Positions 2,368 through 12,333 of a stretch of 52,186 nucleotides of DNA are shown here, in pieces. Location of the stretch: positions 1-52,186 of the IMG/VR virus record IMGVR_UViG_3300032334_000367; one strand, 5' to 3'. This DNA is from a virus. The notes under the pieces are model-generated. The model did no database searches. It saw only the letters and a program-made list of their open reading frames with translations, and was not told the DNA's origin. A program made the translations under genes and the position numbers. The number at the start of each line of letters is the position of its first letter. Position 1 is the stretch's first letter.

Positions 2368-2937
2368 TTATCTCTTTATTTCTGTTATCCAACAACCATT
2401 ATTCCATGGATCAGCATAATTGCCGACACCAAAGACATCATCAACTGCTTTTCTAATTGGCGGTGCCCAACCATAATCATGTCCAGCTAAAACACCACCA
2501 TTTTTAACTTTAGGTAGCCAAGCGATAATGTCACGCTTAACTCCTTCATAAGTATGATCAGCATCAATGAATACGAAATCTAGGCTTCCATCTTCATATA
2601 AACTAGCAGCTTCTGCAGAATCCATCCTAATCGGATTAATTATCTCTTTAACTGGAGAAATATTACTGATGAATGTTTCATAGAGAGTGCCGCTTACAAT
2701 TTCTTGTATTTCGTTATGTTCACCCTCAGTTCCCACCCAAGTATCGATACAATCGAATTTAATATTTTTGCCAGAATTTACAATTTCTACTGCCATGTAT
2801 GCAGAAGATTTTCCTTTCCAAGATCCAACCTCAACAAAATGACTTTCTGTTGAAAATTCGCTAACCATAAAAGAATATAGAGTTGGGTATGTAAACCAGT
2901 CCTCGCCCATGTGAGGTAAATGATAAAAGTGTTCCAT
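2368..2937 (-). CDS. Class I SAM-dependent methyltransferase (Methyltransf_24-like)
   Basis: The 189-residue product has a Rossmann methyltransferase core: motif I FVEVGSWKG (about 34-42), and a later acidic strand FIDADHTYEG typical of the Methyltransf_24 / class I family. The substrate cannot be read from the sequence. Relatives are often glycan or small-molecule O-methyltransferases. I chose the ATG at 2937 because it has a strong GAGAGGA site and lies just after the regA stop; a longer reading frame to 3012 would overlap regA. It ends 6 bases before dut. Confidence 0.8.
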   Translation of the reverse strand: MEHFYHLPHMGEDWFTYPTLYSFMVSEFSTESHFVEVGSWKGKSSAYMAVEIVNSGKNIKFDCIDTWVGTEGEHNEIQEIVSGTLYETFISNISPVKEIINPIRMDSAEAASLYEDGSLDFVFIDADHTYEGVKRDIIAWLPKVKNGGVLAGHDYGWAPPIRKAVDDVFGVGNYADPWNNGCWITEIKR

Positions 2938-2938
2938 G

Positions 2939-3340
2939 CTATTCCTCTCTTTTTTTCTTTCCAATATTGTACTTAGCAACCAATTCCCAATCATTCTTAT
3001 CCTTGTGTGCAATAATCTTAATTTGGGAAAGAGGAGCTCTTAGTTCTTCAATTCTTTCTGGGGAAACAATCTTAATTAGACCCCATTCTGAGAGAAGGTT
3101 AATGATGGTGTTGCGACGAGCAACATCATTCTCAACAATGCTTGATGGCTTACCATCCAAAGCAAATAGTTCTTTAAAGTGTACAATATAATACTTACCC
3201 TGCTTATGCAGGATATGGCAAGATTGGTAAAGTACATTTTCTTTTTTAGCAGCAACGCCGATTCGAGTAAGAGTTTCGCGAATTTTTAGGAAATCGTCTT
3301 TCTCGGCTAGAGTAACTTCGATTAAATTTTCCACACTCAT
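2939..3340 (-). CDS. regA: RegA translational repressor
   Basis: RegA binds early phage mRNAs near their start codons and represses translation, including of replication genes. The 133-residue product aligns along its length with T4 RegA (122 residues). Conserved blocks include TLTRIG, LYQSCHIL (about 38-45) and YYIVHFKEL (about 51-59), and the C-terminal KYNIG. It sits directly downstream of gene 62, the same place as in T4. It starts with ATG, 2 bases after the gene 62 stop. Confidence 0.95.
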   Translation of the reverse strand: MSVENLIEVTLAEKDDFLKIRETLTRIGVAAKKENVLYQSCHILHKQGKYYIVHFKELFALDGKPSSIVENDVARRNTIINLLSEWGLIKIVSPERIEELRAPLSQIKIIAHKDKNDWELVAKYNIGKKKREE

Positions 3341-5931: not shown

Positions 5932-6570
5932 TTAAGTAGAACGATTATTATATACTAAATTGACCAAAGAGTCAACCTTTTCAATTAGGTCTTCTAGTGT
6001 GCTATTGTTAGCAATTTCAGCATCAATATCTGACCCAATCCAAGCCCATTCGCTGAAATGTACGTTGGGGTATTGTTCTGCCATACCGTAATAGTTGTTC
6101 TTTTTATTAACTTTAAGAGCAACATTGTACCATTCAGGCTCATCACCACGCTTCACTCGAATTACAATACCACCTGCTTCCCGAATGGCTTTAATTTCAT
6201 TCGGGAAACGAACATCAGCAATTACATAATTGTTCCAAGGTGCATTCTCGCACCGACGCAGAACAGTATGAACCCAGAGGTCAGGGTGAAATACATCACG
6301 TCCTGCCTCTGTGCCCATAAGTTGTAGAGCTAGTCTTGGGGAGAATGATTTACCAAGTTTCTCAGACCAGAACTTATCGTCCTGCTCTCTCCATGCTCGC
6401 GACTCGGGTGTATCGCCTTCAAGGAGAGCACGATCCCAGCCAAAAATAACTGAGACCGCATCCTTAACACTATTGGCAAAGCTTTCTTTAAAAAAGTCGT
6501 GTCGATCTACTAAAAGATCGGCAACGGCTCCCTTGCCTGCCCCAATAAAGCCAACTAGCCCTACTATCAA
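5932..6570 (-). CDS. gp1: Deoxynucleoside monophosphate kinase (T4 gene 1-like), TTG start
   Basis: T4 gp1 phosphorylates dTMP, dGMP and 5-hydroxymethyl-dCMP to diphosphates. The 212-residue product has the P-loop GFIGAGKG at residues 7-14, an FGWDR segment and an ADVRFPNE motif, all characteristic of the gp1 family. The only plausible start is TTG at 6570, because the P-loop begins seven residues in and no upstream ATG precedes it in frame. That TTG overlaps the TGA of the glycosyltransferase gene, implying re-initiation. It is the last gene of the putative hypermodification cassette. Its 3' end contains the gene 45 promoter. Confidence 0.9.
   Translation of the reverse strand: MIVGLVGFIGAGKGAVADLLVDRHDFFKESFANSVKDAVSVIFGWDRALLEGDTPESRAWREQDDKFWSEKLGKSFSPRLALQLMGTEAGRDVFHPDLWVHTVLRRCENAPWNNYVIADVRFPNEIKAIREAGGIVIRVKRGDEPEWYNVALKVNKKNNYYGMAEQYPNVHFSEWAWIGSDIDAEIANNSTLEDLIEKVDSLVNLVYNNRST
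5947..5975 (-). promoter_or_regulatory. Consensus sigma70 promoter for the gene 45 operon, TTGACT-N17-TATAAT
   Basis: The minus strand has TTGACT (5970-5975) and TATAAT (5947-5952) separated by 17 bases, a near-perfect host sigma70 promoter. It lies inside the last codons of the dNMP kinase gene and points at gene 45 (start 5915). Unlike the TTGC promoters, it lacks a G-run before the -10. Confidence 0.82.
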
Positions 6571-7379
6571 AGAGCACCCACATAGTTGGCAACAGCTGCC
6601 ATATCACCAGTGAACGCATAGCTTCCGATGTGGTGAGTCTTCATCCATGGGCACAACCAAATCTTGCCACCCATGTTACGCCACCACTGACAGAACATAT
6701 AGTCTTCAGAGAGATAACGATCAGATCCTTTACCACCATTTTCAACTGTATCAATTACGGTATCGAAGTATGCATGGATGTAACGCGAACCATCAAAGTT
6801 TGCCTGACCAACATGGTCTGGTTTGTATCGAAGATTTGGATAGTTCTCTTCAAACTTAGCAAAAACCTCGCGCTTAACCATCATGAAACCAGTACCGATT
6901 TCCATAACTTCTAGAGGCTCACCAACATTAAACTGACCAGTACCAACTACAGCATTGAAGACATAATCTCCACAAACCTTTTCGAGTTCTGCTCCAGTGA
7001 TGTTTGGGTTACGCTTAACAGCTTCAACAACAGAACCCCACTTAATGGTTTTCTTTGGGTATGGTCCACCAATAACTTCCTTATCAATTGCCATCATAGC
7101 AATAACATCGCGAGGATCGAAGTGAATATCGCTGTCGATAAACAGGAGGTGGCTGAAGCCAGAACGTAGATACTCATCTACAAGATAATTACGAGCGCGA
7201 GTAATTAGGGATTCATTAAAGATAAATGAGAATCTAACTTCAATCCCATACTGAGAACATAGTGCCTGCAAATCAAGACACGACTTAGCATACATGCCAT
7301 GATTCACACCACCATACATTGGTGTGGCGACAAATAGTTTATTCTTGCGCAATGTTTCAACGGAAATTTCCAGCTTCAT
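6567..7379 (-). CDS. GT-A fold glycosyltransferase, putative
   Basis: The 270-residue product looks like a nucleotide-sugar glycosyltransferase of the GT-A fold. It opens with a beta strand (LFVATPMYGG), has a DSD metal-binding motif at 82-84 in the context FIDSD, and a later SEDYMFCQW segment resembling the family's acidic catalytic region. The acceptor is unknown. It sits inside a run of putative DNA-modification genes and overlaps dNMP kinase by 4 bases, so a modified base is a plausible acceptor; this is inference. Cell-surface or protein glycosylation are alternatives. ATG with a GGAG site. Confidence 0.78.
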   Translation of the reverse strand: MKLEISVETLRKNKLFVATPMYGGVNHGMYAKSCLDLQALCSQYGIEVRFSFIFNESLITRARNYLVDEYLRSGFSHLLFIDSDIHFDPRDVIAMMAIDKEVIGGPYPKKTIKWGSVVEAVKRNPNITGAELEKVCGDYVFNAVVGTGQFNVGEPLEVMEIGTGFMMVKREVFAKFEENYPNLRYKPDHVGQANFDGSRYIHAYFDTVIDTVENGGKGSDRYLSEDYMFCQWWRNMGGKIWLCPWMKTHHIGSYAFTGDMAAVANYVGAL

Positions 7380-7381
7380 TA

Positions 7382-7954
7382 TTATTCACTCCAGGTAAAA
7401 AAGTCTTTGACTGTATCAATAATCTTAGTTTGGTCATCGTAAGTTTCGTTGACCATTGTTTCTATATAGCCCATGAGAACTAGCGAACTACAAATATTTG
7501 AGATTTTCGTTTCACGGCTGTTCTTAAATTTATCGTCTTGATCGTCTTTTCTATCCACATGACGCTTCTCTTTCTCATCATGGGACGCCCTCAAAACTAG
7601 AACTTTAAAGTTTTCTTCTAGGACATTATCTGCAATATGTTCTAGAAATTTACCGTTGAATAAACGGTCACCTTCAAAAATCACATTGACCTTTTCAGCA
7701 TTTTGCCGCAAGTCATCAATAAACTTAACTGCATCAGGCTGAACAGCCATGCTTAGACGGTCAGTCCCTTGGAATACATTACCATCTTTTTCATATTTAC
7801 CTAGAATATAGGTGCGCAACTTTTCGCTGTATAGCGCATCAAGGAGTTTCTGAGGCTTGCAAACTTTCCAATCGTCAGCCATGGCAATGAGTTTAAAAAT
7901 TAATGTCGTTTTTCCTGTGGCAGGTTCACCACCCAATGCAATCACCTTAAGCAT
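7382..7954 (-). CDS. P-loop kinase, putative (possible 5-hydroxymethyl-base DNA kinase)
   Basis: The 190-residue product has an N-terminal strand and Walker A GGEPATGKTT at about 8-17. A candidate acceptor/Walker-B strand NVIFEGDRLF lies near residue 90-99, and a basic lid-like region (KRHVDRKDD) near 130-140. This is the layout of small nucleoside/nucleotide kinases. It overlaps the preceding helical-domain gene by 8 bases. 5-hydroxymethyl-dU DNA kinases of hypermodifying phages are P-loop enzymes of similar size linked to such a helical domain. That assignment is inference; an ordinary nucleotide kinase is the alternative. Confidence 0.7.
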   Translation of the reverse strand: MLKVIALGGEPATGKTTLIFKLIAMADDWKVCKPQKLLDALYSEKLRTYILGKYEKDGNVFQGTDRLSMAVQPDAVKFIDDLRQNAEKVNVIFEGDRLFNGKFLEHIADNVLEENFKVLVLRASHDEKEKRHVDRKDDQDDKFKNSRETKISNICSSLVLMGYIETMVNETYDDQTKIIDTVKDFFTWSE

Positions 7955-8960
7955 AAAAAGCCTCCAAGCCAGTTGTCACTGGTTTTTCATCGTCAAACAT
8001 CCACTCTAATTTAGATATTCTACCTGAATTCAAGTAAGAAGTAAACATTTCTTTGTTAATATTTTTAACGCCAGCTAATGGTGGTTCAAGAGTTTCATTG
8101 CGAGCTTGCCATAAAACATTCCAATCAATACCATGCCAGCCATCTTTTTCTGCCTGTTGAATTTCTTCAGACTGTCTATCAAGATAGTATCCCAAATATC
8201 TTCCATGATGTTCGCGGAAGATTTTCTTAAATGAGCAAAGGCAAGTTTCCATTGTAAAGAAATCAATCTCATCTCTCAATGATGGGAACCTAATTTTCAT
8301 CTCGATGAGAATATCTTGTGCATTTCCTTCAAGAATTCCATATTCCTTTGCAGTAAGTTTTGAATCATATTTGTCATCTTGCCCAAGCGCAAAATGTAAA
8401 CCATTACGATGTGAACGAGACCCAGAATAATCGTCCAACATAAGAGAAGTAGGCTCAACTCTAATATTAGCAGTGTGGTAAAGATGCTGGAGATAAAACC
8501 AAGTGGAATAACGACCAAACTTGTAAAGACCGTTTTTAATAGCTCCCCATAAATTGTCGAATGATTGGTGTTCGTTGTCTCCATAATAACTCTCCAAAGC
8601 TTCACGTTGAGATCTATTTCCAATAAATTTTTGATATGATTCGAACATCACGGGAAGATGTCCCTTGTTCCACTTGGTGTCAGTTTGATATCTTAATCGT
8701 TTATAGTTTTTTGTGTTCCACTGCGTGATTCTATCCACAGTAGCAAGTTCAAAGTCTGGGAATTCATTCTTCAGAACCCATGTGGTTGGAAGCTGATATG
8801 TATTACCATACAACCAGCAAATCCAAATTCTTTCTTCGTCGTTGTGTTCATATCTTTTATTAAGATAGTTTGTAAGCCATACAGCAGGGTCGCAATCTTT
8901 ATATTGCAGCGACCAAGCATACCACCGAATAAATTGTTCTAGACGTTCTTTATTAATCAT
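7947..8960 (-). CDS. Putative 5-hmdU DNA kinase helical-domain / aGPT-Pplase2-like protein
   Basis: The 337-residue product is mostly alpha-helical. Conserved-looking blocks are FGRYS (148-152), DDYSGSRSHRNGL (176-188), and a CLC..FKK..R...RY segment at about 240-255. This pattern resembles, from memory, the helical family described with alpha-glutamyl/putrescinyl-thymine pyrophosphorylases and 5-hmdU DNA kinases (Iyer et al. 2013 nomenclature). I cannot confirm it without a profile search. The adjacent separate P-loop kinase fits a split version of that system. It overlaps the GNAT gene by 4 bases and the kinase by 8. Trp and Tyr are abundant. Confidence 0.55.
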   Translation of the reverse strand: MINKERLEQFIRWYAWSLQYKDCDPAVWLTNYLNKRYEHNDEERIWICWLYGNTYQLPTTWVLKNEFPDFELATVDRITQWNTKNYKRLRYQTDTKWNKGHLPVMFESYQKFIGNRSQREALESYYGDNEHQSFDNLWGAIKNGLYKFGRYSTWFYLQHLYHTANIRVEPTSLMLDDYSGSRSHRNGLHFALGQDDKYDSKLTAKEYGILEGNAQDILIEMKIRFPSLRDEIDFFTMETCLCSFKKIFREHHGRYLGYYLDRQSEEIQQAEKDGWHGIDWNVLWQARNETLEPPLAGVKNINKEMFTSYLNSGRISKLEWMFDDEKPVTTGLEAFYA

Positions 8961-9484
8961 GATAACTCATCGAAAATTTCTGCGCAACCACCCTTACCCT
9001 TGCGGTAAATCGCCTTTCGTATTGTAGGGTCTGCAGTATCATATATTCCAGTGTTAATAGTTAAACCATTAATTCTAAAGATGCTTAGTTGACATTTGCT
9101 CTTTTGAGCGCACCAAAATTTAAATCCAATCTTTTTATAGAAAGCGACAGCATCAGGTTCTGCTGAAACTCTGAAATACTCAGCGTGTTTAGAAATAGAG
9201 TCATTAAAAGAATATTCGCAAAGATACTTACCGACTCCACGACCTCTAAATTTAGCAAAGGTGTGCAGTAGTTGTAGATTAGCAACATGCGGTGGACGTT
9301 TCGATATTGTGGTTATAATCGCTCCAGCTAACTCATCGTCAACAAACGCACCAAGACATTCAGACCATTGGTCTTGCATATTTGCTTTAGATACAAAAGT
9401 CTTTGCGAATGAATCAGCTTTATCTGAGCTAATAGCTGGAATAAATTCTTCTTTCGTTATCTTTCTGATGTCAAACAACGGCAT
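8957..9484 (-). CDS. GNAT-family N-acyltransferase
   Basis: The 175-residue product is a GCN5-related acyltransferase: motif A, the acetyl-CoA pyrophosphate loop, is RGRGVG at about 80-85, followed by a helix. A VAFYKKIGF-like motif B block lies further on. The transferred group and acceptor are unknown. I chose ATG 9484, which has a GGGAA site; an open frame to 9559 would overlap the amidoligase by 89 bases. The chosen start overlaps it by 14 and the next gene by 4. Acetyltransferases recur in systems that decorate amino-modified bases, but that link is inference here. Confidence 0.82.
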   Translation of the reverse strand: MPLFDIRKITKEEFIPAISSDKADSFAKTFVSKANMQDQWSECLGAFVDDELAGAIITTISKRPPHVANLQLLHTFAKFRGRGVGKYLCEYSFNDSISKHAEYFRVSAEPDAVAFYKKIGFKFWCAQKSKCQLSIFRINGLTINTGIYDTADPTIRKAIYRKGKGGCAEIFDELS

Positions 9485-10343
9485 GAAATTCCCGATGCTT
9501 ACTTCCACGCTCTTTAGGATACTTGGTTGCTTCCCAACCAGTGTAGAGATCATGGTCATACACTAGAGGTGGGAAATTATATCCTTGCTGTAAAATAACA
9601 TCTACATCAGGACCATCGTTCAGCGCAGCATCAATAAACTGAGATGCGAATCTAAAGCAGTTTGAAATTTCAACCTTATTGGTAGATGACCTGAAACAAC
9701 GGAACTCGATAGTTCCTGTATGCTTCATGCAATATGTATTGATAGCATGACGGAATGGACGACCCATTGAAGCGCCATCCTTACCTGCTGCGTGAAGTTT
9801 GATGAAGTGATCAAAATCAGTAGCCAGATTGATGATATTGCTGCACATGTAATCTGGCATTGGACGTCCGCCGTCCCACTTCAAATAAGTGCGAGCAGTC
9901 TTCGTGTCTTTCATGGCATAATGTTCTTTATACTGATAACATGCCTTGATAGTTTGCTCTTGATTGCGCTGAATGTATGCAATGAGGCTCTTTAGCGCAC
10001 CAATATCATCTTTAAGACCAGGAACAAATACATGGAGATGTCCATGATTTACACAAGATGAGGTGGGCTCATTACCGCTAGCTGCAAACAAGTCATGAAT
10101 CTCCATGATTCTATCAACTTGTTCAACCCAAGTCTTTGTTGGTTTGGTATTAATCTCACCGCCAAAAGGTGGCTCCAATCCAAGAGGATCGCAGGCAACG
10201 CCACGATATGGGTCGCGCTCATTGACAATATCAGTTTCTGCATATTCCCATTTTCCTAGATGTTCAGGAATTTGAAAATTACGAGGGATATCACCCCATT
10301 CTATCTCATAGCCATAGGTAAACGTGTCAGGAGAATATTTCAT
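9471..10343 (-). CDS. Amidoligase (glutamine-synthetase-like fold)
   Basis: The 290-residue product has the signatures of the COOH-NH2 amidoligase family, distant relatives of glutamine synthetase that use ATP to form amide or peptide-like bonds. These are YGYEIEW (10-16, metal-binding Glu), GGEINTKP (61-68), CVNHGHLHVFV (97-107, His pair) and TGTIEFRCFRSS (209-220). Family knowledge: these enzymes often neighbour class II glutamine amidotransferases and acetyltransferases, exactly as seen here. The substrate is unknown: candidates are a carboxylated DNA base, a peptide or a small metabolite. ATG start; 2 bases after the amidotransferase stop. Confidence 0.85.
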   Translation of the reverse strand: MKYSPDTFTYGYEIEWGDIPRNFQIPEHLGKWEYAETDIVNERDPYRGVACDPLGLEPPFGGEINTKPTKTWVEQVDRIMEIHDLFAASGNEPTSSCVNHGHLHVFVPGLKDDIGALKSLIAYIQRNQEQTIKACYQYKEHYAMKDTKTARTYLKWDGGRPMPDYMCSNIINLATDFDHFIKLHAAGKDGASMGRPFRHAINTYCMKHTGTIEFRCFRSSTNKVEISNCFRFASQFIDAALNDGPDVDVILQQGYNFPPLVYDHDLYTGWEATKYPKERGSKHREFHAVV

Positions 10344-10345
10344 AA

Positions 10346-10975
10346 TTACACCATTTGTAAATCTTTAGTATCACTTCCGCATGGAACAATATCAGCTTTA
10401 TACTTTCTACCAGAAGCTCTGTACATAATATCTGCAGTAGAAGTTATGATGTAGCCATTGTCCAATTCAGTTTTATATAGGGGACGTTTACCGTTGCGAT
10501 AATATCTCATCTCCCCACAAGCATGTAGCTCAATAGCAGCAATGCTAGCATTTCTCCAAAGAAACAGAGGGGTCCTATCCACTGTATGCAGTAATAACTC
10601 GCTGTCATTTTTAGTTTGTGTATCAATTTCATATAGCTTTTTCCAATTTTCAGGAAGTTCTTGAGAAATTACGCCATTATGTACAATGGCAACATGATTA
10701 GTGTATAGCGGCTGGTTGTACTCTAGGTCACTAGTGCTATACCGACAATGACCGATTAACTTAATAGATTTTCCGCAAAGCTTTTCAAGCTTCTCTAGGT
10801 GAGAAAAATTATCTGATGATACTGGTTCTTTGAATGTAAGAAGTTCTTTCTTACTTAAGATTGTCATACCAGTTGCATGTAATCCTCTAATCTTAGACTC
10901 TATAAAAACTCTGCGGATTAGTTCAAACTGCTCAGCAGTAGGGTTTTCAATATTAACACCAATTACAGCACACAT
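10346..10975 (-). CDS. Class II glutamine amidotransferase (Ntn hydrolase)
   Basis: The 209-residue product is a stand-alone glutaminase domain that releases ammonia from glutamine for a partner enzyme. Cys2 follows the initiator Met and would be the N-terminal nucleophile. RG (30-31), GHCRYST (75-81) and HNG (99-101) form the substrate pocket of the GATase II family. No synthetase or phosphoribosyltransferase domain is attached, so the partner is likely the adjacent amidoligase. Its start overlaps the dioxygenase stop by one base, so the two are co-translated. Confidence 0.9.
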   Translation of the reverse strand: MCAVIGVNIENPTAEQFELIRRVFIESKIRGLHATGMTILSKKELLTFKEPVSSDNFSHLEKLEKLCGKSIKLIGHCRYSTSDLEYNQPLYTNHVAIVHNGVISQELPENWKKLYEIDTQTKNDSELLLHTVDRTPLFLWRNASIAAIELHACGEMRYYRNGKRPLYKTELDNGYIITSTADIMYRASGRKYKADIVPCGSDTKDLQMV

Positions 10976-12333
10976 TAACCGAACAATGCCTCTAGTGAGC
11001 TTTCCTTGGTGTTAGCTTTTGGATGATACTTGTCAAGCATTTCTCGACCACCATGAGTTTCAAGATAGTCATACCATTCTTTAGTTTCCCACATCCCTTC
11101 ACTTACACCATTCCACAACTTACGTTGCATTGGGTGCTCAGGATTTTTGCGACGAAATTCTACAAACTCAAAGCGATGGTTTTCATATTCATATGAGCCA
11201 AGTTCAAGCATCTTCTCACGAAGATAACAAACAAGGCTGATACGCTCACCGTCATCATATGTTTCAATAGGAGTGTTACCATGAATAATCTCATGATTGT
11301 TCACAAGTAATAGATCGCCTGGACGAACATTTACCGCAATGCGATACTCTGGGAAAATAAGGTAGCCACCACGATACTTTCCATTATTAGAGAGCACAAG
11401 AAGATTGCTTAGACCATCGCTGAAATCTCCAGCATCACGATGACATGCAGTACGGAAAGTCTTGTTCACAGTAATAGTTGTGAATACAGTTTCAGGAACT
11501 AGGAATCGCTGGTCAATTTTATCAGCTGCAGCTCTCTGATTACCCCAACGCGAAGGTAGAAGTTCTTTAAACCCTTTGTCGAGAGTTTGTAGGAAGGGGA
11601 ATGCCATTTTGAATTTATCAAAATGATTCTTGGTGTAAGCAGTAGCGCGACCATATGGGATGCGAGGATAACGATCGAACCAACCAGCAATACCAGAGTT
11701 TACTGCATTAGCATAGGTTGTATCAGAAATATATTTGTCTAGAGTATCTCTAGCAGAACTACGAATCTGAGCTTTATCTTTAAGCTTAAGAACGCCTTTC
11801 AACCAACCATCAAAGTTAAAATTATTTTTTTCAACTTCAGAAGCCAACCAAACCAGACCACGAGTCGAGGAGTTATCCTTTGTCTTTTGCTTGACCAATT
11901 CAATTTCTGTTTTAAGGTCTACTTGAATTACAGTTTCTTGTAGATCCGCTAGGAGCTCTAAAGTTTGAATTTGATAATCTGTAACCCATTCACGCTGGGC
12001 GCACTTTTCGCCTCTTGGTCCAGAAGCCAACCCACGATTCTGCGATGGAGTTGCGGCTTCTCGCAAACCAAGATATGCTTGTTCTTGTTCTTCTTTGCTG
12101 AAGAAATTCTTTCTGAACATGAAAGCGATACGCTTTTCATCTTTGGTATTCTTAGACTTGCAATCTTTGCAGTCTGATTCTTTACACTGAGCTTTCTCGA
12201 ACGGAGAGCAATCTGCTTCATAGTAGCAGTCAGTGTCTGACTCAATAAGTGTATCATAATGAGTCTCATCTACAAATTGTCCAAGTAGATGTTCACAATC
12301 AATTTTAGTTCTAGCGACAATTACATTAACCAT
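10975..12333 (-). CDS. TET/JBP-like 2-oxoglutarate/Fe(II) dioxygenase
   Basis: The 452-residue protein has a double-stranded beta-helix dioxygenase domain at about 205-372. Metal ligands are H298 and D300 (CHRDAGDFSDG) and H351 (HEIIHGN), and the 2-oxoglutarate-binding Arg is R364 (ERISLV). The upstream RATAYT segment (229-234) and the GG..IFPE and PGDLLL strands resemble TET/JBP base dioxygenases, which oxidise 5-methylcytosine or thymine. The N-terminus has a cluster of Cys (36, 42, 50, 55, 58) that may bind zinc. It is the first gene behind promoter 12362-12390. A protein or free-metabolite hydroxylase is the alternative. Confidence 0.75.
   Translation of the reverse strand: MVNVIVARTKIDCEHLLGQFVDETHYDTLIESDTDCYYEADCSPFEKAQCKESDCKDCKSKNTKDEKRIAFMFRKNFFSKEEQEQAYLGLREAATPSQNRGLASGPRGEKCAQREWVTDYQIQTLELLADLQETVIQVDLKTEIELVKQKTKDNSSTRGLVWLASEVEKNNFNFDGWLKGVLKLKDKAQIRSSARDTLDKYISDTTYANAVNSGIAGWFDRYPRIPYGRATAYTKNHFDKFKMAFPFLQTLDKGFKELLPSRWGNQRAAADKIDQRFLVPETVFTTITVNKTFRTACHRDAGDFSDGLSNLLVLSNNGKYRGGYLIFPEYRIAVNVRPGDLLLVNNHEIIHGNTPIETYDDGERISLVCYLREKMLELGSYEYENHRFEFVEFRRKNPEHPMQRKLWNGVSEGMWETKEWYDYLETHGGREMLDKYHPKANTKESSLEALFG

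Follow-up and report, generated by a model that had tools for sequence, protein, structure and literature searches.

TET/JBP-generated hydroxymethyl pyrimidines were reportedly predicted by Iyer et al. in 2013 to be starting points for hypermodification systems, and Burke et al. are said to have described a phage TET acting on 5-methylcytosine (5mC) in PNAS in 2021. No demonstration of a phage TET acting on thymine was found in the literature covered. The ParB/TET/aGPT-Pplase/kinase operon of Rhodococcus phage Tonitrus was considered a probable thymidine hypermodification system (PMC11955845), and a 2019 paper notes the lack of any report of glucosylated 5-hydroxymethyluracil (5hmU) from phages (PMC6449724). 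Here, a TET/JBP gene and its neighbours are compared with these systems. They are located in a stretch of viral DNA of 52,186 nucleotides (IMG/VR record IMGVR_UViG_3300032334_000367, positions 1 to 52,186), which is called the window in the following.

The TET/JBP protein

The open reading frame at 10975–12333, in which the initial annotation had recognized a TET/JBP-like dioxygenase, is real, starts with ATG and encodes 452 amino acids; its strand was corrected to minus, and all coordinates of the TET gene, its residues, the operon and the two genes next to its end given below refer to the minus strand. A search with the Pfam profile Tet_JBP (PF12851), which had been suggested as a check, yielded 77.5 bits (E = 8.9e-22), more than twice the curated cut-off of 34.9. 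The residues proposed for the 2OG-Fe(II) site were exactly placed: the Fe(II) ligands H298-x-D300 (11434–11442) and H351 (11281–11283) and the 2OG-binding R364 (11242–11244) were invariant in 82 aligned sequences, i.e., the window TET, its re-fetched copy and 80 IMG/VR homologues. The segment RATAYT (residues 229–234) was found within a strongly conserved stretch, with R229, T231 and T234 invariant in 52 aligned sequences.

An AlphaFold model of the protein (mean pLDDT 83.9) showed a double-stranded beta-helix fold closest to that of TETs. VIA-align Z scores were 19.9 for TET2, 18.6 for NgTET1, 18.3 for CcTet and 18.0 for CMD1; these four proteins filled the top 16 rows of structural matches (Z 17–20), followed by AlkB/FTO at about 12–13. 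A best match to prolyl or small-molecule hydroxylases had been named as the result that would speak against the assignment. TETs ranked first, and prolyl 4-hydroxylase appeared only far down the Foldseek list; such hydroxylases are therefore out by fold ranking. Profile, residues and fold agree, and the window protein is a phage TET/JBP dioxygenase, for which oxidation of a 5-methyl-pyrimidine in DNA is predicted.

Apart from Tet_JBP, no Pfam domain, such as SNF2 in JBP2, was matched by the window TET. The GenBank label "SNF2 DNA repair protein", which is carried by the TET relatives of phages DLP6, Cr30 and S-CBWM1, was not adopted, since the window homologue is without an SNF2 match. The label "queuine tRNA-ribosyltransferase" (phrog_6059, gp2 of phage Zemanar) was also rejected; that protein matches Tet_JBP, though below the cut-off.

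Five Cys in residues 36–58, which had been noted as a possible zinc module, are indeed present (C36, C42, C50, C55 and C58), but they are not a constant feature of the family. C42, C50, C55 and C58 were all found in 55 of the 82 rows; C50, C55 and C58 were all missing from the other 27, two of which keep C42. C36 and C13 varied independently of this set. This joint presence or joint loss speaks for an optional C-x7-C-x4-C-x2-C metal module (C42–C58, 12160–12210), which is likely the unit, with metal binding putative; the model was weak over residues 41–60 (pLDDT about 64). A constant zinc finger is ruled out by the optional presence. The module is missing even from relatives with 91% identity and is, therefore, dispensable for the core activity.

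The operon and its exchangeable tailoring slot

The TET gene heads a tightly packed operon in the order TET, GATase, amidoligase, GNAT, AADT and kinase, with gaps of −1, +2, −89, −4 and −8 bp. The second gene (10346–10975) encodes a class-II (Ntn) glutamine amidotransferase (GATase_6, PF13522, 7.9e-10) with invariant Cys2, GHxRYST, HNG and ND. It is followed by an amidoligase-like protein (Amidoligase_2, 9471–10343), whose own score is below the Pfam cut-off; in its family, 9 of 18 members matched PF12224 (best 2.6e-8), and the motifs GxExExG and HxH are invariant. The GNAT acetyltransferase (8957–9559; PF13673, 1.4e-12) overlaps the amidoligase by 89 bp, and its true start may be internal. 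The amino acid:DNA transferase (AADT; Pfam name ADDT) at 7947–8960 passed the cut-off of PF18724 (6.9e-20). All 31 members of its family matched this profile, and three of them also matched the "putrescinyl thymine" family PF18746.

The last gene of the operon (7382–7954) encodes a P-loop protein of the nucleotide-kinase fold with the Walker A motif GEPATGKT. Its own score is below the Pfam cut-off, and 24 of 29 family members matched Ploopntkinase3 (PF18751, best 2.3e-13); the model (pLDDT 93) had (d)NMP kinases as structural matches. It is the candidate 5hmU DNA kinase, or hydroxymethyl-base kinase, of the operon and has a Ploopntkinase3-type kinase fold; it is not of the HMUD2 type. In PHROG 800 and GenBank this kinase (window 7382–7954; NC_025422; NC_042035 gp4) carries a terminase label. 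The designation "terminase small subunit" (phrog_800; one Cr30 record and Zemanar) is contradicted by the P-loop kinase profile, with 239 bits for Ploopntkinase3 in Zemanar, and by the fold.

Past the kinase follow a conserved glycosyltransferase-like protein (6567–7379; phrog_1574, Anp1 below cut-off), a T4 gp1-type deoxynucleoside monophosphate kinase (5932–6570; PF21448, 5.9e-10; phrog_139, 9.7e-46), the gp45 clamp, DsbA and the gp44 and gp62 clamp loaders. Together with matches to gp23 elsewhere in the window, these genes bear out the T4-like setting that had been proposed. The phrog_1574 gene, with 60 neighbourhood ORFs, adjoins the slot described below irrespective of the slot type, and it occurs in phages of Synechococcus and Sinorhizobium as well.

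In 80 IMG/VR loci with a related TET, the tailoring slot contained AADT plus kinase (40 loci), a GT4 glycosyltransferase (20 loci) or the TET-associated glycosyltransferase TAGT, PF20691 (13 loci); the remaining seven were mostly truncated or had other candidate tailoring genes. AADT and kinase occurred together in 40 of 40 loci and never apart. Two slot types at one locus were not found (0/80); when 60 distinct TETs were shuffled 20,000 times, ignoring relatedness, no shuffle reproduced this result. On the TET tree the slot type switches at least 17 times, and the near-identical TETs of loci L043/L044 and L045 carry GT4 or TAGT. A constant oxidase combined with interchangeable decorators would be expected if the product of TET is a hydroxymethyl-pyrimidine.

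Further genes were noted at several loci. Six of these loci (L069, L070, L071, L076, L078 and L083, the latter from phage Cr30) contained, downstream of TET, a divergent AADT (20–25% identity to that of the window in L070, L071 and L076), a myo-inositol-1-phosphate synthase, a protein of 126–129 amino acids and the kinase, which suggests inositol as another decoration there. In phage C48C1 (L084:13356–15388) the genes after TET encode a possible glycosyltransferase, for which Pfam gave no match, and a protein which, by eye, resembles UDP-galactopyranose mutase; decoration with galactofuranose is possible. An ORF between GNAT and AADT (L063:13518–14858), with 11 similar ORFs (430–490 amino acids), had no Pfam match; the protein reads like GIY-YIG plus a ParB-like part, as is also the case for the product of the gene that follows TET in Melnitz. 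One divergent member (L047:4333–5010) had an N4/N6 DNA methyltransferase-like protein, recognized by eye, between TET and AADT.

Thymine or cytosine as substrate

The statement that no DNA methyltransferase is visible in the window is true for cytosine-C5 methyltransferases (C5-MTases). A small Methyltransf_24 protein (2368–3012) is present; it is not supported as a source of 5mC, since its family is not that of C5-MTases. A look for C5-MTases or hydroxymethylases elsewhere in the genome had been recommended and was carried out in relatives, the window record being a 52-kb fragment. C5-MTases (PF00145) were not found in 14 long contigs of the window clade, in complete DLP6, Cr30, C48C1 and S-CBWM1, or in another 17 records, among them the complete genomes of HTVC112P and P12024L, i.e., in 0 of 35 long or complete non-Melnitz TET-bearing records; in the positive control, Melnitz-3, the same search gave a match. 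Nine complete related phages were without them. At the level of the locus, a C5-MTase was present in 0 of 80 cases in the window clade versus 65 of 71 in the Melnitz-type TET clade; for the TETs of small phages, it was located some kb away in 5 of 131 loci, which speaks against thymine. In Pelagibacter phage HTVC112P (L172:6973–9195), which has a complete genome of 32 kb without a C5-MTase, genes for a ParB-like protein, TET and an FkbM-type methyltransferase adjoin.

The thymidylate synthase/hydroxymethylase family (PF00303) was absent from the TET-bearing records searched, except for Cr30, where the match (372.9 bits) was TS-like; ThyX, which supplies dTMP, was present in 15 of 19 records. 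The complete phages Zemanar and LittleMunchkin possess TET, AADT and Ploopntkinase3 without PF00145 and PF00303. Salmonella phage SFP10 has PF00303, 5-hmdU DNA kinase 2 (HMUD2) and AADT without TET, and Vibrio phage D533 has PF00303 and an AADT-like gene, also without TET. From this reciprocal pattern in complete genomes, it appears that TET takes the place of the hydroxymethylase. Since only thymine, among the 5-methyl pyrimidines, is surely available in these phages, oxidation of T to 5hmU in DNA is the most economical reading. The substrate, which the initial annotation had left open, is narrowed by the lack of C5-MTases in the relatives and by the AADT and kinase module, which had escaped notice; given a TET that hypermodifies DNA, thymine is its probable substrate.

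Evidence for cytosine comes from the base pocket. D303 (HxD+3, 11425–11427), invariant in the clade, is by motif spacing the equivalent of CMD1 D350, NgTET1 D234 and TET2 N1387, which contact N4 of 5mC (PMC7854593), and docking in CMD1 indicated that Asp there is unfavourable for O4 of thymine (PMC7854593). By analogy, D303 argues for cytosine and against thymine. Another base-pocket position is R372 (R+8, 11218–11220), whose role is suggested by CMD1 R418 (PMC7854593). Eight residues after the 2OG-binding Arg, an Arg was found in all TETs of the window clade and nearly all of small phages, and Asp or Gly in the Melnitz-type TETs linked to C5-MTases. R+8 may thus, by analogy, be a pocket determinant that marks different pockets. 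As an independent substrate marker it was discounted, since the split between Melnitz and the rest may be one evolutionary event.

The foremost rival explanation is a cytosine route, where TET would oxidise 5mC, made by the host or by an unrecognised methyltransferase, to 5hmC, with subsequent action of kinase and AADT or of glycosyltransferases, as in phages whose TETs reportedly act on 5mC. Besides D303, it can draw on the Melnitz-type phages, which pair a C5-MTase with TET, often together with a kinase of the P-loop family; since this family also occurs beside C5-MTase and TET there, it is no marker for thymine. Against this route stand the C5-MTase counts given above. Moreover, host 5mC would mark only few sites, and AADT accompanies hmdU enzymes in SFP10-type phages. 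On balance, we regard the cytosine route as rather unlikely, though more probable than the other alternatives.

Proposed pathway and comparison with known systems

The best explanation as a whole, to which we assign a probability of roughly two in three, is that TET starts a DNA-base hypermodification by the thymine route, which leads to a bulky base directed against restriction. The order of steps would be as follows. TET would hydroxylate the 5-methyl group of thymine, the presumed base, in already made DNA, yielding 5hmU, and would thereby take over from the dUMP hydroxymethylase, which in other phages acts before replication. Judging by its family and position, the P-loop kinase would phosphorylate the hydroxymethyl group, and AADT, as is known for its family, would exchange the phosphate for an amino acid or another amine. 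The GATase/amidoligase pair could then amidate the adduct and GNAT could acylate it. The resulting bulky base should block host restriction enzymes; camouflage against the DNA-cutting defences of the host is most likely the function of the modification.

A sparse or regulatory mark similar to base J, or an action on host DNA instead of a genome-wide camouflage, is improbable: JBP does make a rare mark in kinetoplastids (PMC6449724), but tailoring genes that are co-inherited, exchangeable and located next to replication genes are reminiscent of the hypermodification systems of phages. The least probable of the alternatives is a 2OG oxygenase for a protein, a small molecule or RNA which is merely a neighbour of the AADT operon; 2OG folds are versatile, and prolyl-hydroxylase-like structural matches exist at low rank, but profile and fold are specifically those of TET/JBP, and the DNA-tailoring genes AADT and TAGT adjoin TET in distant phages too.

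Following the thymine route further, we tentatively suggest that thymine in DNA is hydroxylated directly by a widespread phage TET/JBP family, which supplies interchangeable tailoring modules with its product. The branch of the window might produce an amidated and acylated amino-acid adduct, and inositol might perhaps be attached in the relatives with an inositol-1-phosphate synthase; this would mean new bases and a post-replicative route in place of a dUMP hydroxymethylase. Cultured relatives, e.g., Caulobacter phage Cr30, mycobacteriophage Zemanar and Nonlabens phage P12024L, make the question of the substrate directly testable. Should it be thymine, the enzymes would be new tools for marking T within DNA, and with its exchangeable content the slot would represent a natural collection of enzymes from which new DNA bases could be made.

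Compared with the ParB-TET-AADT/aGPT-Pplase-kinase operon of actinophages (Tonitrus; Coopervirus Zemanar; Gordonia phage LittleMunchkin), the common elements are TET, the amino-acid transferase family and a P-loop kinase. Like the relatives of the window, Zemanar and LittleMunchkin are without a C5-MTase and a dUMP-hydroxymethylase-type gene. The actinophage genomes are smaller (63–71 kb for Zemanar and LittleMunchkin), and the window is T4-like; an N-terminal region with the optional Cys module distinguishes its TET, and genes for GATase, amidoligase and GNAT are added in its operon. With the thymidine hypermodification of phages ViI, M6 and phiW-14 (PMC6449724) and of Ackermannviridae such as SFP10, the locus shares the AADT family and, putatively, the step of a hydroxymethyl-base kinase. 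However, 5hmU is made there at the nucleotide level before replication; SFP10 has the PF00303-type enzyme and the HMUD2-type kinase mentioned above and no TET. The Melnitz-type TETs and the phage TETs reported to act on 5mC have the TET/JBP fold and adjacent tailoring genes in common with the window, but in the Melnitz type the cognate C5-MTase is next door, and Asp or Gly is present at R+8 instead of Arg. Kinetoplastid JBP1 and JBP2, which form base J, share the TET/JBP domain, the proposed conversion of T to 5hmU in DNA and subsequent tailoring, by a glycosyltransferase in the relatives with TAGT or GT4; in contrast, the window TET contains neither SNF2 nor another further Pfam domain, and tailoring involves here mainly AADT and kinase. 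As a prediction, TET-based thymidine hypermodification predates this analysis; the locus described here is its T4-like version, distinguished by an added amidation module and an exchangeable slot.
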